Of a DNA stretch of 29,090 nt, positions 1,813-9,766 are shown one piece after another. Positions within the stretch are counted from its first letter, which is position 1. Each line of letters begins with the position of its first letter. The notes under the pieces are model-generated. The model made no database searches. It saw only the letters and a program-made list of their open reading frames with translations, and was not told the DNA's origin. The DNA is from a virus, in the IMG/VR virus record IMGVR_UViG_3300037843_000931, positions 1-29,090 of that record. One strand, given 5' to 3'. A program made the translations under genes and the position numbers.

Positions 1813-4107
1813 ATGGCCCTACACTCCACCGCCGTGATCCAGGATTCGGCCCGCGTGCCGATCTTGCCGAAGGGTGGGGCGCCGGTCTCGTCCGTAGCGT
1901 CCACGTCGATGACGTATGGCCGCCTCAACGAGACGAACCCTGAGTACAAGGCGGAGACGTGGGCCACCATCGAGGCCCTCTACGTGGGCGGGTTCGGCAT
2001 CCAGAAGGACGCGTCGAAGCACGTCCAGAAGCTCTTCCTCGAGGCCGACGACCGGTACGCTGAGCGGTGCAAAATCGCTAGCTATCAGCCGTACTTCACG
2101 GAGATCATCGACCAGTTTGTCGCAGATGTCTTCGTTGAGCCGCTGAACATCAAGCCGCAGGCGGACGCGGACAACCCGGACACTCCCGGCGAGGAGCCCG
2201 ATCGGGACTACTACTCGTCGTTCGCCGCCAACTGCGACCGTCGCGGCCAGAAGTTCGCGGGCCTGCTCGAGATCACGCTTCGTGAGGCGCTGAAGAAGGG
2301 CGTCGCTATTGTCGCGCTCGACGCTCCCAATTTCGACGACGCGCTGGTTGCAGAGACTCGCGCGGACGAGGAGAAGAGCGGCGCGCTCGACCTCTACGCC
2401 TATGACGTGCCCGTTGAGGGTCTCCTGTCCTGGGAGCCCGACAATGAGGGCGGCCTGAAGTGGGCCATCATCAAGACCGTCTGTACTCCGCGGGAGAGCC
2501 CGATGGACGTGCGGGACACGGTCATCGAGACGTTCACGGTCTGGCGCAAGCTCGACGGCGTGGTCGACTGGACCCGCTACGAGTGCCGCCACAAGATCGA
2601 AGAGACGCCGAAGAACGAGTCGATCGTTGACCGGGTCGGTGGCGGGACGACGAGCTTCAAGCGCGTCCCCATCCTGCGGCTCGAACTCCCCCTCGGGCTG
2701 TGGGTTGGCAACAAGATCGGCACCCAGGCGCTCGAGCACTGGAACCGGTACTCGGCGCTCGTCGGCGCAGAGAACCGAAGTCTCTGCGCGATCCCGTACA
2801 TCAAGCGCGGCAGCGAACTTGGTGCGCCCGGCGGATCACTCCCGTCGGCCACCCAGCAAGACGAGCAGCGCGGCTCGAACCCTGTAGCCCGTTTCCACAA
2901 GAAGGGCTACGTCGAGATCGGCTCCGGGGACGAGCTTGGATTCGCTGAGCCGTCGGGCCACTGCTACACGGTCACGGCCGACCAACTCGACAAACTGAAG
3001 AACGCGATGTTCGCGGTCTCGCATCAGATGGCGGTCAGCATCCAGCCGACCAAAGCCGCGTTGCAGCGGTCGGGCCTGTCCAAGCAGAAGGACGAGGACG
3101 CCAAAACCAAGGTGCTCCGCGTCCTTGGCGCCATCATCCGCACCTTCGCCACGCTGGTCTACACAACGGTCAGCGAGGCCCGCGGCGAGAACGTCGTCTG
3201 GAACGCTCACGGCCTCGAGGACTACGTTGACGAGGACCGTCAGCAGCTCATCGAAGAAGCGGTGAGAATGGACACGATCCCGATCCCGAGCGTGACGTTC
3301 CGGCGCCACTACAAGCGCGAGATCGCCAGGAAACTCCTTGGGTCCGCAGAACCAGGGGTCCTCGACACCATCAACAACGAGATCAATGAAGGCGTAGACG
3401 CCGAAGAGGCGATGCGCTCCATGCAGGCGGATGCCCAGAAGGACGCCATCCTGAACCCTCAGGACCACGCTCCGCAGGGCGCCGTGAGGCCGGTCCAGCC
3501 CGTGAAGCCGGTTGCGCCGGTCAAGCTCGGAGCGGGCGACTCGCCGCAAGGCAGCGCTGCAAGCGGCGGCCAGCCTACCGGCCCATCGGCGTCGGCCCCC
3601 CTCGGCGACGGCGGCCAGCCGGAACTGCCCGAAGGTGCTCACTTGCAGACCGGGCAGCATGTGGACGCGCATGCTGTGTGGGATCTCCTCAAGGACGATT
3701 ACGAGGAGAAGGACATCGGTTGGGTCCTGCAGATTCCGTGGATTGGTCCGGTCGAAGTTCCGCTGGGATCGATCGACAGTAGCAACCGTGATGCTTGGGC
3801 GGCAGTCGACGATACAAAGAAGGTCGACAGGTTCGCCGACAAGATCGCCAACGAGGGGTTCTCCAAGCCGGTCATCCTGGTCAACGCGCCGTCCAACTCG
3901 GCCAAGATGCGGATTGTTGACGGACACCATCGATATCTTGCATATGAACAGAACGGTCAAGCTGTGATGGCATATGTGGGACAGGTAGGCACCACGTCTG
4001 GCCCATGGGACACTCTTCATGACCGCGAGGTCGACGCCCAGAAACCATCAGCGTCCGGCACCCTGAAGTCGAAGCAGGTCAGTCGACAATCGTCGAGGCA
4101 GAAGTGA
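1813..4107 (+). CDS. Portal protein with C-terminal ParB/sulfiredoxin-like domain
   Basis: The 764-residue product follows terL directly, as portals do. Residues from about 30 to 540 read like an SPP1/DUF4055-type portal: an N-terminal helical region (YAERCKIASYQPYFTEIIDQ, then a VADVF segment), a central beta-rich body and a long helical stem near 400-540. The portal is the dodecameric ring at one head vertex through which DNA passes. It is longer than the usual 450-550 residues. After a Pro/Gly/Ala linker (about 560-610), residues 617-735 form a separate domain with EVPLGSID near 648, KPVILV, the signature DGHHRYLA at 703-710, and GPWDTLH. This pattern matches the ParB N-terminal/sulfiredoxin-like fold, in which DGHHR lines the nucleotide pocket. 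Similar domains are known at the ends of some phage head proteins, but their role is unknown. The ribosome site is weak. Confidence 0.85.
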   Translation: MALHSTAVIQDSARVPILPKGGAPVSSVASTSMTYGRLNETNPEYKAETWATIEALYVGGFGIQKDASKHVQKLFLEADDRYAERCKIASYQPYFTEIIDQFVADVFVEPLNIKPQADADNPDTPGEEPDRDYYSSFAANCDRRGQKFAGLLEITLREALKKGVAIVALDAPNFDDALVAETRADEEKSGALDLYAYDVPVEGLLSWEPDNEGGLKWAIIKTVCTPRESPMDVRDTVIETFTVWRKLDGVVDWTRYECRHKIEETPKNESIVDRVGGGTTSFKRVPILRLELPLGLWVGNKIGTQALEHWNRYSALVGAENRSLCAIPYIKRGSELGAPGGSLPSATQQDEQRGSNPVARFHKKGYVEIGSGDELGFAEPSGHCYTVTADQLDKLKNAMFAVSHQMAVSIQPTKAALQRSGLSKQKDEDAKTKVLRVLGAIIRTFATLVYTTVSEARGENVVWNAHGLEDYVDEDRQQLIEEAVRMDTIPIPSVTFRRHYKREIARKLLGSAEPGVLDTINNEINEGVDAEEAMRSMQADAQKDAILNPQDHAPQGAVRPVQPVKPVAPVKLGAGDSPQGSAASGGQPTGPSASAPLGDGGQPELPEGAHLQTGQHVDAHAVWDLLKDDYEEKDIGWVLQIPWIGPVEVPLGSIDSSNRDAWAAVDDTKKVDRFADKIANEGFSKPVILVNAPSNSAKMRIVDGHHRYLAYEQNGQAVMAYVGQVGTTSGPWDTLHDREVDAQKPSASGTLKSKQVSRQSSRQK

Positions 4108-4550
4108 CCACCATCGCCTGGGACGGCAAGACGCTCGCGGCCGACACGCTGGCGACGTCGGACGGCCTGCGTCGCAAGTGCTCCAAACTGGTCGTGACAC
4201 CGTTGCACTTCTACGGCGGCACCGGCCTGGAAGGCGACATGGTGACGGTGGGCCACTGGGTCAAGGGTGGCGCGCCGCTTCAGCGTCCGACCGTTGAAGA
4301 AGACGGCATCCACGGCATCCTCGTGGACCGCAAGACCGGTCGGGCCTTCATGCTGATGGGGAAGAACCTCGCGGCGTGCCCCATCCACGACGCGACCGCA
4401 GCGTGCGGCAGCGGTCGCGACTTTGCGCTCGCAGCCATGCACCTCGGCAAGACGGCGGTCGAGGCCGTGGAAGTGTCGGCCAAGTTCGACGTGTGGACGT
4501 CGCTACCCGTCGAGTCGGCCGCGATCAACGACCCCGTCCCCGAGCCGTGA
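4104..4550 (+). CDS. Proteasome beta/HslV-like Ntn-hydrolase, candidate head protease
   Basis: This 148-residue protein begins (M)TTIAWDGKTLAAD, the hallmark start of HslV/20S proteasome beta subunits, in which removal of Met exposes the catalytic Thr. The expected landmarks follow: an acidic residue after the first strand (D13), basic RRKCSK near the Lys33 position, GGTG after the third strand, and CGSGRDFALAAM matching the GSG..(Y/F)A.AA helix of HslV. It is shorter than HslV (about 175), with the central helices reduced. The start is GTG 4104, overlapping the portal stop as GTGA, with GAGG just upstream. It sits between portal and MuF protein, the usual place for a prohead protease, and no ClpP-, S49- or U35-type protease is visible in the window. 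A maturation role is inference; the fold assignment is strong. Confidence 0.82.
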   Translation: MTTIAWDGKTLAADTLATSDGLRRKCSKLVVTPLHFYGGTGLEGDMVTVGHWVKGGAPLQRPTVEEDGIHGILVDRKTGRAFMLMGKNLAACPIHDATAACGSGRDFALAAMHLGKTAVEAVEVSAKFDVWTSLPVESAAINDPVPEP

Positions 4551-5455
4551 TCCTCACCGCCAAGTTGGAGGCAGCCCCCTCCAAGGGCCAGTCGAAGCTT
4601 CCGCCCCCCAAGGGCAAGCAGGCTGACGTCATCCGCATCTCGGCGGGCGCTCTCCTGGTCGCAGAGGCCAAGGCGCGCCGCGACCTGCAGCGGACGATGA
4701 AACTCCACTCGCTCGAGGCGTCCGAGAACGCCAGAGAGCAGCAGCGGGGCGATGGTACCGTCGAACTGGCCACCCTGGGCGCCATCCTTCTCCTGCACTC
4801 GAGGAGGATGTCGGCAGCGCTGGCTGAGCGACTGCAGTTGGCCAAGCACCACGCCCGCGAGGTCGGGGCTGCGAGGCTGAAGACGGAGTTGCGGGCCGCT
4901 GGTGGACAGAAGCTCCTCTGGCGGATCCCCGCCATCCAGCAACGACACGAGGATGCGCAGGCAATCATGGCCGCGGACTCGCTGTCGGTGCAGTGGCGCA
5001 CCCGCGCGCTCCAGAACGCGATGCAGAAGCAGCGTCTCGCCGCATCAGAGGACGAGGCTGCCGGCGTAGCTGCCGAGGAGGTCTATGGGGCCGCCGTGGC
5101 GACCTCCAGGTCCGTCGACAGAACTGCAGCCACTGAGGTGGCCAGGGCGTTCAACGAAGGCCACAGCGAGGCTGCTGTGGGTCTTCAAGACCTCGACGAA
5201 GAAGACCTCGCGGGCTTCCAAGGCTCCGGGATCTCCGGAGAGTTGGACGAGTACCCCGGCGTCACGGTCATGGACCGGTGGTCGGCCATTCTCGACGGTC
5301 GCACTTGCATGGAGTGCGCGGCGCTGGACGACACGTACACGCTCGTCGGCGAGCCGTTTCCATCAGGCTACGAGCCTGGCTGGCACCCATGGTGCCGCTG
5401 CATCCGGGTGCTCGAGTTCGTCACGGACCCGGTACCACTGAGGGAGATCACGTGA
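4547..5455 (+). CDS. Phage head morphogenesis protein, MuF/SPP1 gp7 family
   Basis: This minor head protein of about 302 residues associates with the portal and is ejected with or guides DNA in related phages. The N-terminal two thirds is helical and charged, rich in Ala, Arg and Glu. The C-terminus carries the family signature: RTCMEC with C254 and C257, followed by GWHPWCRC with H280, C283 and C285, a probable metal-binding CxxC...HPxCxC group. I chose GTG 4547 because it overlaps the preceding stop as GTGA, matching the coupling used at both neighbouring junctions. An upstream ATG in the same frame at 4376 would lie inside the Ntn-hydrolase gene and would add Arg-rich residues typical of out-of-frame reading. 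Gene order portal, protease, MuF is standard. Confidence 0.9.
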   Translation: MILTAKLEAAPSKGQSKLPPPKGKQADVIRISAGALLVAEAKARRDLQRTMKLHSLEASENAREQQRGDGTVELATLGAILLLHSRRMSAALAERLQLAKHHAREVGAARLKTELRAAGGQKLLWRIPAIQQRHEDAQAIMAADSLSVQWRTRALQNAMQKQRLAASEDEAAGVAAEEVYGAAVATSRSVDRTAATEVARAFNEGHSEAAVGLQDLDEEDLAGFQGSGISGELDEYPGVTVMDRWSAILDGRTCMECAALDDTYTLVGEPFPSGYEPGWHPWCRCIRVLEFVTDPVPLREIT

Positions 5456-5706
5456 GCAAGGCGTTGGAAGCGGGCGACCTCGTCGTCCTGAAGAGTGGCG
5501 GACCGACGATGGTTGTCACGGCCACCAGAATTGGCGACGGATCCGGCGCCCCCCTCAGTGAAGAGGGTGATCACGAACTTGCCGATGCCTTCGACGAGTG
5601 GGTTGGCTGCTCCTGGTTCGATGATCAGGCCCAATTCCATTCCGCAGCGTTCCCTCGCGTAGGCCTGGCCACGCAAGCGACAATGTTCGACTCGACGGCG
5701 GACTGA
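5452..5706 (+). CDS. DUF2158/YodC-like small protein
   Basis: The 84-residue product starts MSKALEAGDLVVLKSGGPTM and continues to a WVGCSWFDD segment and an AAFPRVGLA end. This matches the small YodC/DUF2158 beta-barrel proteins, whose conserved features are GD.V.LKSGGP.M near the start, a C.WF pair and a short FP..L end. The family has no established function and is found both in bacterial genomes and in phages. The start GTG 5452 overlaps the MuF stop (GTGA) and is preceded by GAGGGAGA, a good ribosome site. A longer in-frame ATG at 5278 would lie within the MuF gene and is rejected. Tight coupling to the MuF gene suggests co-production with head proteins, but there is no evidence that it is in the virion. 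Confidence 0.8.
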   Translation: MSKALEAGDLVVLKSGGPTMVVTATRIGDGSGAPLSEEGDHELADAFDEWVGCSWFDDQAQFHSAAFPRVGLATQATMFDSTAD

Positions 5707-6639: not shown

Positions 6640-7746
6640 ATGGTCCACACGCCCGTCAGCGCCTTCGTCATCGCGAATGGCGATCCCCTGCTACCGCAGG
6701 CGATCGAATCGGTCCGCCCCTTCGTAGACGAAGTCGTCGTTCTCGACACGAGCGCCGCAAACTTCCCCGAGTGCAACGACGAAAACGGCTTCATGGCCGA
6801 CTTCTCGATGGCTCGCAACAGGGCGCTCGACCGATGCGCGTATTCGACGGCCCTCTGGTTTGACAGCGACGATGTCGTCGTCGGGTTGGAAAACCTCCAG
6901 GCCATCATCGCAGCGGCCAAGGACGAGGCTTCGGGTCGTGAGTGGTGCATCATCGCCCCGTACGAGTACGAGCGAGTAGGTGACCGCTGCGTGAGCTTGC
7001 AAGCGCGAGAGCGCATCGTATCGGACAAGTCCAAGTTCATCTGGCGGAAGCCGGTCCACGAGGTCCTGCTGCCGCGCCATGGTGTGGAGTGCCTCAACCT
7101 CGAGGTCCCCAGCCTTGTCTGGAAGCATCAGCGCGCTCAGTCCGTGCCTAGCGAACGCAACCTCCGCATCATGCGCAGGTACGTGGCGAGCTTCGCTGCA
7201 GCCGAAAAGTCTCTGCCGATCCAGGTTCGATACGACTACGGGATGGAACTGGCGAAGGCCGGTAGTCACATCGAAGCCATCGAGCACCTGACGCAGTACG
7301 TCCACGAGAGCAACTGGGACGACGCTCGAGTGCTGGCCTGCCTGCAGATGGTGCAGATGTACTCGTTCTACCCGGGCCGGCAGGATGATGCGCGGAAGTG
7401 CGCCGAGAAGGCCATCTCGATCAAGCCAGACTGGTGCGAGGGCCACTTCGCCATGGCGAAACTCGCGTACAAGCAGCGAGATTACGCGGCGACCGTCGAG
7501 CATGCCGAGCGAGGCATTGGTTGCCCCACGACGCAGACGACCATCAACGTCAACCCGCAGGACCGGCTCATCAACATCCCCAAGATGCTGGCCGATTCGC
7601 TGAGTCATCTCGGTCGCAACTCGGAGGCCCACCGTGCCTACGCGCTGGCTCTCGATGCGACGCCTGACGACCCCAACCTGAGAACGCTTCATCGGATCAC
7701 GGCGCCAGCGTTTGGGGCGCCCGCAGAACAGTACCATCACCCGTAG
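6640..7746 (+). CDS. GT2-type glycosyltransferase with C-terminal TPR region
   Basis: The 368-residue protein begins VSAFVIANGDPLLPQAIESV and continues VDEVVVLDTSA, the nucleotide-sugar half of a GT-A Rossmann-like fold. FSMARNRALDRC then leads into LWFDSDDVV, with the DxD motif at D75-S76-D77(-D78) that binds the metal and UDP/GDP-sugar. This order (R-N-x-x then L-x-D-x-D) is typical of family 2 glycosyltransferases. Residues from about 197 to 345 form helical pairs resembling three or four TPR units (for example around KCAEKAISIKPDWCEGHFAM), as seen in GT2-TPR proteins. It starts 1 base after the previous stop. The target could be a virion protein, as in phages known to glycosylate their capsids or tails, or a host glycan. 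No glycosidase or nucleotide-sugar gene is nearby. Fold call firm, substrate unknown. Confidence 0.85.
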   Translation: MVHTPVSAFVIANGDPLLPQAIESVRPFVDEVVVLDTSAANFPECNDENGFMADFSMARNRALDRCAYSTALWFDSDDVVVGLENLQAIIAAAKDEASGREWCIIAPYEYERVGDRCVSLQARERIVSDKSKFIWRKPVHEVLLPRHGVECLNLEVPSLVWKHQRAQSVPSERNLRIMRRYVASFAAAEKSLPIQVRYDYGMELAKAGSHIEAIEHLTQYVHESNWDDARVLACLQMVQMYSFYPGRQDDARKCAEKAISIKPDWCEGHFAMAKLAYKQRDYAATVEHAERGIGCPTTQTTINVNPQDRLINIPKMLADSLSHLGRNSEAHRAYALALDATPDDPNLRTLHRITAPAFGAPAEQYHHP

Positions 7747-7893: not shown

Positions 7894-8625
7894 ATGCCTC
7901 TCTCTCCCGAGCAGATCGCCGAAATCCAGGAAGCCCTCGTCCCCGCCCTCGAAGCCAAGATGCAGGAGACGATCGTCTCTGCGCTCGGCAGGCCACTGAA
8001 CGACGCGATTTCGAAGCGGCTTGGTCAATTCGAGAAGACGTTTGGCGGAACGGTCGAGTCCTCAATCTCCAAGGCCATCGAGGGACTCAAGGCGCAGACC
8101 CCGGCTCCCCAGGGGGACGGCAACCAACGTCAGCAGGACCCGAAGGACCCCAACGCGGTGGCCCTGAAGACGGTCGAGACCAAGCTCGCGGACGCCCTAG
8201 CCCGCCTGGACGATGCCGACCGCCGCGTCGCGGCTGAGCGATCCAAGAACCGAAACACGAGCCTGACCGACACGGTCAAGGACCACCTCGCCAAACTCGG
8301 CATCGTGGATCCCGTCGCTCAGCGCCTTGCCGTCTCTCACCTCGTGCTCGCCGACAAGCGCGTGCAGTACGAGAGCGACGAGGACGACGCCCGCCCGCTT
8401 TTCGTGGGCGAGGACGGCGCTCCCGTGGACCTCTCGACCGGCCTGAAGAAGTGGTCGACGTCGCCCGAGGCGAAGCACTTCCTCCCCGCGATCGGTGCTC
8501 GAGGTTCGGGTGCAAACCCTCCTCAGCGTTCGCAACTCGCTCCGATTGGTCAGAAACTCTCAGTGGAACAGCAACGCGAAGCCGTGGGCAATGCGCTCGC
8601 GGATGCGCTCAACGCATCACGGTAA
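7894..8625 (+). CDS. Probable capsid scaffold protein
   Basis: The 243-residue protein lies directly before the major capsid gene, the normal place of a scaffold, which guides shell assembly and is then removed. It is acidic/charged and mostly helical. An N-terminal helical block (EQIAEIQEALVPALEAKMQE) is followed by a Gln/Pro-rich break near 68-85, then a coiled-coil-like segment around 90-125 (KTVETKLADALARLDDADRR). A Gly/Pro-rich linker leads to a short helical C-terminus (SVEQQREAVGNALADALNA) of the type that contacts the capsid protein. No protease domain is visible. An ACAGGA site precedes ATG 7894. The assignment is from position and composition, not from a specific family motif. Confidence 0.72.
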   Translation: MPLSPEQIAEIQEALVPALEAKMQETIVSALGRPLNDAISKRLGQFEKTFGGTVESSISKAIEGLKAQTPAPQGDGNQRQQDPKDPNAVALKTVETKLADALARLDDADRRVAAERSKNRNTSLTDTVKDHLAKLGIVDPVAQRLAVSHLVLADKRVQYESDEDDARPLFVGEDGAPVDLSTGLKKWSTSPEAKHFLPAIGARGSGANPPQRSQLAPIGQKLSVEQQREAVGNALADALNASR

Positions 8626-8668: not shown

Positions 8669-9766
8669 ATGGGCGCCGAGAATCTCTCTTCCGTATTTCA
8701 GGCTCTGTCGTTCATTCTCGACCCCGAGATGGAGCGCCAGTGGAATCGCACGACCTACTTCATGGGCATGCTCAATGCCACGAAGGGGTCCGTCTCCGAG
8801 GGCGGCGGCAAGTCCGTCAACTTCGACACCGAGTTCACGGGTGCCACTGCACAGACCGTGGCCGAGGGTTCCGACGTTCTGGCGGCCGAGTACGCCAGCG
8901 ACGTCAACGTGCCCGCGGTGTTCCCGTGGTGCCACTACCGTACGTCGTTCCAGGTCAGCGAGACCGAGGTCGACGCGGCGGCAACGAGCGTCGGCACGGC
9001 CAGCGCCCTCATCGACCTGTTCGGTGAGCGCATCCTGAACGCGTCCGCCGTCCTCGCGCAGCGCATCGAGAACGACGCGCTCGTCGGTACCGGTGTCGAC
9101 GCGAGCGGCAACCCAGCCCTCATCGGCATCTACGGCGGCGCGCTCACGGCGACTGGTGCGTACGGCGGGATCAACGCCGCGACGTACCCGGAGTGGGCGT
9201 CGAACGTCGTATCGAACGGCGGGACCCCCCGCGCGCTCACGGCCGACCTCCTCGAGCAGGGTGACCAGGACATCTTCACGGCGTCCTCGCTGCCATGGAA
9301 CGCCGTCATGACATCGGCCGGGGTCCTCCGCAAGTACATCGGGCTCTTCACGAACCCGACTGCGCCCATGACCCGCATGAACGACGGCGCTGGCCAGCCG
9401 GCGTACGGCCTGAGCACGGCTCTCAATGCGCAGTCGCAGCAGATCGACGCGTTCTTCAAGGGCAAGCCGCTCATCCGGAACCCGCTGAACCCGACCGGCC
9501 AGCTCGCGCTGCTCAACACGAACAAGATCAAGGTCAAGTACCTGCCGCGCCGCCTGTCGGGAGCGGACATCGATTTCATGCGCAAGATCGGCCTCGAGGG
9601 GTCGAGCGGTGGCATGGCGCCGATTCAGGCGACTGGCATTCCGGCCCGTCTCGCGGTGCTCGCGAAGACCGGCGACTCGTACAAGGTCTCGATGAAGGTG
9701 TCGCTCGCGATGTCCGTCGTCCGCCGGAACGCTTGCGCCGTCATTACGGACATCAGCGAGACGTGA
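8669..9766 (+). CDS. Major capsid protein, HK97-fold type
   Basis: The 365-residue protein is preceded by the strongest ribosome site in the window (GAAAGGA), as expected for the most abundant virion protein. The N-terminus (LSSVFQALSFILDPEMERQW) is followed by a domain with many beta strands and Gly-rich turns. The segment near 130-160 (LAQRIENDALVGTGVDASGN) reads like the long spine helix leading into the P-domain loop. The C-terminal region (KVSMKVSLAMSVVRRNACAV) looks like the beta strands of the A-domain. Length suits an HK97-type shell protein. Position after the scaffold and before the connector genes agrees. No N-terminal delta domain or processing site is obvious, in keeping with a separate scaffold. 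Confidence 0.88.
   Translation: MGAENLSSVFQALSFILDPEMERQWNRTTYFMGMLNATKGSVSEGGGKSVNFDTEFTGATAQTVAEGSDVLAAEYASDVNVPAVFPWCHYRTSFQVSETEVDAAATSVGTASALIDLFGERILNASAVLAQRIENDALVGTGVDASGNPALIGIYGGALTATGAYGGINAATYPEWASNVVSNGGTPRALTADLLEQGDQDIFTASSLPWNAVMTSAGVLRKYIGLFTNPTAPMTRMNDGAGQPAYGLSTALNAQSQQIDAFFKGKPLIRNPLNPTGQLALLNTNKIKVKYLPRRLSGADIDFMRKIGLEGSSGGMAPIQATGIPARLAVLAKTGDSYKVSMKVSLAMSVVRRNACAVITDISET

Follow-up and report, generated by a model that had tools for sequence, protein, structure and literature searches.

A PPH-family proteasome-like hydrolase at the portal–MuF junction of a phage, with a probable accessory role

The gene lying between the portal and MuF genes of this phage encodes a further member of the already described phage family PPH, a compact proteasome-like Ntn-hydrolase with a conserved catalytic set, which probably serves as an accessory threonine hydrolase with host or phage proteins as its targets during infection, without an unfoldase of its own and not as the head maturation protease. 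PPH (proteasome-like homolog) was described by Fuchs, Alva and Lupas in 2021 as a family of proteins of ~140 residues, found in Caudovirales and in the hosts of these phages, that have neither helix H2 nor a propeptide (PMC8665760). The window, that is, the whole stretch of 29,090 bases analysed here, is a record classed as virus and may be a fragment. Its PPH gene is real, encodes 148 residues and lies at exactly the location first given for it, and a codon-usage gene caller recovered it within an unbroken row of genes on the same strand. As the preliminary description had it, the gene sits between portal and MuF. The terminase large subunit (TerL) lies further upstream, and scaffold and major capsid protein (MCP) lie downstream:

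136–1809, + strand: TerL, upstream of the portal gene
1813–4107, + strand: portal protein, 764 aa, with a C-terminal ParB-like domain; upstream neighbour of PPH
4104–4107, + strand: GTGA overlap of portal stop and PPH start, read from the sequence
4104–4550, + strand: PPH-family proteasome-like Ntn-hydrolase, 148 aa, GTG start
4547–4550, + strand: GTGA overlap of PPH stop and MuF start, read from the sequence
4547–5455, + strand: MuF-like head morphogenesis protein, 302 aa; downstream neighbour of PPH
7894–8625, + strand: head scaffolding protein (phrog_206)
8669–9766, + strand: MCP (SU10_MCP, PF17236)

Family membership, fold and active site

Because the protein matches PHROG 1040 ('peptidase HslV family', E 2.1e-26), finds 424 phage records by tblastn and has PPH relatives at 80 loci in viral contigs and 28 in bacterial genomes, mainly Proteobacteria, the gene stands far beyond chance. 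PHROG 1040 appears to correspond to PPH, and the match was used as a proxy for membership of the PPH cluster. No Pfam model matched in a profile search of the protein and nothing significant came from a single-sequence search of the PDB (best E 0.9); a profile search of the PDB matched HslV and BPH, the bacterial double-ring homolog (PDB 5ovs, 5ovu), at E 6e-9 to 2e-7. A single-chain structure model built from an alignment of 58 PPH members reached a mean pLDDT of 94.5, and Foldseek comparison with the PDB ranked BPH (E 2.4e-7, TM 0.69) and HslV (E 3.2e-7) at the top and proteasome beta subunits next, while its viral matches included further phage proteins that carry a proteasome or Ntn hydrolase annotation. 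Only three helices are present in the model (residues 43–54, 105–113 and 118–128), and H2 is absent. The cluster match, the high-confidence model and its best matches to BPH and HslV thus bear out the compact HslV/proteasome-type Ntn-hydrolase with reduced helices that had been read from the letters of the sequence.

The motifs reported there in HslV order are likewise present, their true positions being Thr2, Asp14, Lys28, Gly41 and GSG at 102–104. The corresponding codons, with conservation among the 58 aligned relatives, are:

4107–4109, + strand: Thr2, predicted nucleophile (Thr in 53/58, Ser in 5/58)
4143–4145, + strand: Asp14, equivalent to proteasome Asp17 (58/58)
4185–4187, + strand: Lys28, equivalent to proteasome Lys33 (58/58)
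4224–4226, + strand: Gly41, equivalent to oxyanion-hole Gly47 (58/58)
4407–4415, + strand: Gly102-Ser103-Gly104, equivalent to the proteasome Ser129 region (both Gly 58/58, Ser 45/58)

The catalytic set of Thr/Ser2, Asp14, Lys28 and Gly41 is complete in all 58, and the family sequence is highly varied outside the active site. At all loci examined but one (ATC), a start codon (ATG, GTG or TTG) immediately precedes the Thr or Ser. Short patterns served to recruit the viral relatives, and since one of these patterns is N-terminal, part of the Thr2 conservation among them reflects ascertainment. An independent check came from the phage set derived by tblastn, which was recruited without the N-terminal pattern: Thr directly follows the start codon in 13 of 13 cultured-phage members, Asp14 aligns in all of them and the Lys aligns in 10, with a Lys close by in the other three. 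Thr2 therefore keeps its standing as the candidate nucleophile, and, judged from the predicted fold and the conserved catalytic residues, the enzyme is very likely active.

With the published PPH proteins the window protein shares a compact length (148 against ~140 residues), a phage or prophage setting, the Thr/Asp/Lys/Gly proteasome core and the lack of both H2 and a propeptide; nothing of substance differs, and the exact portal–MuF site is absent from the cultured-phage members examined. BPH, although the best structural match and equipped with the same active-site set, has chains of about 185–200 residues, an H2 helix and a long acidic pore loop, and is 19% identical to the window protein. 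HslV, a dodecameric double ring, has the same fold and TT(I) start, and its Asp/Lys/Gly and GSG motifs follow one another as in the window protein, but it has a full helix set H1–H4 in about 175 residues; the window protein, without H2, is some 30 residues smaller and has no HslU gene in its window.

A BPH-like gene is mentioned in a paper on a single phage (PMC8953757). A label as a defence gene was dropped, since PADLOC, which covers defence systems, gave PPH no match. In the Aeromonas phage 4L372XY (5204–6600 of record L178), two 'peptidase HslV family' genes of 183 and 275 residues lie next to each other, an arrangement that may be of two subunits and recalls proteasome alpha/beta pairs.

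PPH is absent from the same junction in two relatives and mobile in position

The place between portal and MuF had been taken for a prohead protease slot, and comparison with other phages does not uphold this. The only diverged relatives of the window head module that we found are two fragments of 4–6 kb, L092 (TerL 53%, portal 43% and MuF 37% identical, the last at E 6e-33) and L093 (TerL 43%, portal 49% and MuF 38%, the last at E 8e-8). In both, MuF follows immediately after portal, with no PPH in between and none elsewhere on the fragment, and L092 keeps the GTGA overlap, there joining the portal stop to the MuF start. The phages behind these fragments could have PPH elsewhere or another protease. 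This junction holds PPH in the window phage and lacks it in the two relatives, and the gene looks, from the sequences compared, like a cassette that was inserted into the junction or lost from it. Searching viral contigs for relatives with the MCP or the portal brought up identical copies only.

A wider survey, which clustered the genes at offsets −4 to +4 around 60 PPH loci, placed homologous portals at −3, +1, +4, +1, +3, +3, +3 and +2 and homologous TerLs at −1, −2, +1, −2, −2, −4 and +2 from PPH. The larger neighbour groups have the sizes of, and partly match, head and packaging families; assigned by size and profile matches to portal, TerL, MCP and scaffold, they occur at many shifting offsets on both sides of PPH. 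No partner gene common to the 60 loci emerged from the clustering, and the PHROG families tallied at −2, −1, +1 and +2 included TerS, TerL, head–tail adaptors, holin, endolysin and regulators. Packaging genes are therefore frequent neighbours of PPH, which has no single slot among them; across the 60 relatives it lies variously near terminase, beside holin and endolysin or among early genes. It is found with several different capsid families.

Cultured phages extend this range of settings. PPH adjoins holin and endolysin in the Guernseyvirinae, a lysis-cassette layout repeated in another record, occupies a separate small operon on the opposite strand in Jedunavirus, and lies between TerL and portal in phiM5; in further cultured phages it is in replication or unassigned regions. 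The phiM5 proteins marked as present in particles include scaffold, portal and capsid but not PPH; a literature search found no virion proteomics of phiM5 or an Ent-type Salmonella phage.

Other proteases, unfoldases and the probable role of PPH

Among the scanned proteins of the window, which may be a fragment, there is no other protease and no AAA+ or HslU-like ATPase, in agreement with the preliminary description. Other PPH-bearing phages do have true or predicted head proteases. Klebsiella phage IME346 has both PPH and, adjoining its MCP gene, a clear separate protease for head maturation (phrog_530, E 4.5e-106), a complete Mu I protease (E 1e-112) is encoded by a Mu-like record (G011), and pSal-SNUABM-04 combines HslV-like genes with three predicted prohead proteases (PMC7823757).

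In a comparison by Pfam models, which are insensitive for this purpose and missed the head proteases of both IME346 and pSal-SNUABM-04, S78, S49 and ClpP were found in 0, 0 and 1 of 42 PPH records and in 4, 0 and 0 of 27 contigs picked at random with an arbitrary 16-mer. S78 is scarcer in the PPH records (Fisher p 0.02), and the three families taken together occur in 1/42 against 4/27 (p 0.07), both values being uncorrected and the records related. A control set based on endolysin was dropped, as it consisted mostly of one Salmonella phage lineage that itself bears PPH. The shortage of S78 is weak and confounded by lineage, and may mark head types in which S78 was never used.

These surveys bear most directly on the reading in which PPH is a Thr-dependent head maturation protease, co-assembled in the prohead and cleaving scaffold, capsid or MuF. 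The site between portal and MuF with its overlapping starts, the lack of another protease among the scanned window proteins and the scarcity of S78 are what speak for it. The known head maturation proteases (S78, S49, ClpP-type and Mu I; phrog_530), however, differ from PPH in fold and nucleophile, and the position of PPH resembles theirs in the window phage alone; across phages, neither position nor co-occurrence follows their pattern. The empty junction in the head-module relatives, the shifting position, the many phages with PPH beside lysis or early genes, the presence of true or predicted head proteases alongside it and the variety of accompanying capsids together rule this reading out as the leading explanation, and we consider it unlikely. 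A narrower form, in which an otherwise accessory PPH was recruited in the window lineage as an unfoldase-free Thr-dependent protease for scaffold or MuF, is a little more doubtful still; if true, it would be the first proteasome-type capsid maturation enzyme. The frequent nearness of PPH to terminase and portal leaves room for PPH to be tied to the late packaging region.

The accessory hydrolase that we favour would work as follows. Removal of Met1 would expose Thr2, which would attack the amide bond of a substrate, assisted by Lys28 and Asp14, as conservation and fold suggest, while Gly41 would help to form the oxyanion hole. HslU/Clp-type AAA_2 domains occur in 2 of 43 PPH records, one of which is a contig that also has ClpP and may be partly cellular. 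Because such ATPases are nearly absent, the substrates of a small oligomer acting during infection would probably be host or phage proteins that are unfolded or short, or specific ones; alternatively, a host unfoldase would be borrowed. Degradation of host proteins, which had been offered as an alternative to head maturation, may be part of this role, and a literature search on PPH function found no paper, with no substrate or activity reported for any PPH.

A more definite form of borrowing, about as doubtful as recruitment in the window lineage, would have PPH supply peptidase rings to host HslU or replace subunits of host HslV, redirecting the regulated proteolysis of the host. The HslV-like fold is compatible with it, the scarcity of AAA_2 in PPH records would mean that the ATPase must be the host's, and HslU is also absent beside the HslV-like genes of pSal-SNUABM-04 (PMC7823757). 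Against it, PPH falls short of HslV by about 30 residues and has no H2, and BPH, which has the same core, apparently needs no unfoldase partner (PMC8665760). Least probable of all is an Ntn enzyme of narrow specificity, monomeric or of low order, such as a protein ligase or amidase like connectase and not a general protease: the reduced helix set resembles in kind that of connectase, where the first helix pair is absent (PMC8665760), and the family varies strongly away from its active site, but the PPH model does not show the helical insertion that connectase has near its active site.

The case separates membership of a known family from the unsupported idea of a head protease. Hundreds of phages, many from Salmonella and E. 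coli, have PPH with an intact active site, and what PPH does in them is of more interest than the window locus itself, whose own interest is moderate to low.

Further features of the window head module

The window MCP had no tblastn match in 50,697 phage records and matched an identical copy only in viral contigs, so the head module is poorly sampled. The ParB-like domain of the window portal lies at about residues 662–714 (PHROG ParB families, E 5e-5); the L092 portal also bears this domain, and the L093 portal stops before it. Immediately 3′ of MuF, and overlapping it at the start, is a gene for a small DUF2158 protein (PF09926) at 5452–5706. A glycosyltransferase-like gene with TPR repeats (6640–7746, phrog_13126) lies within the cluster of head genes, preceded by those on the MuF side and followed by the scaffold.
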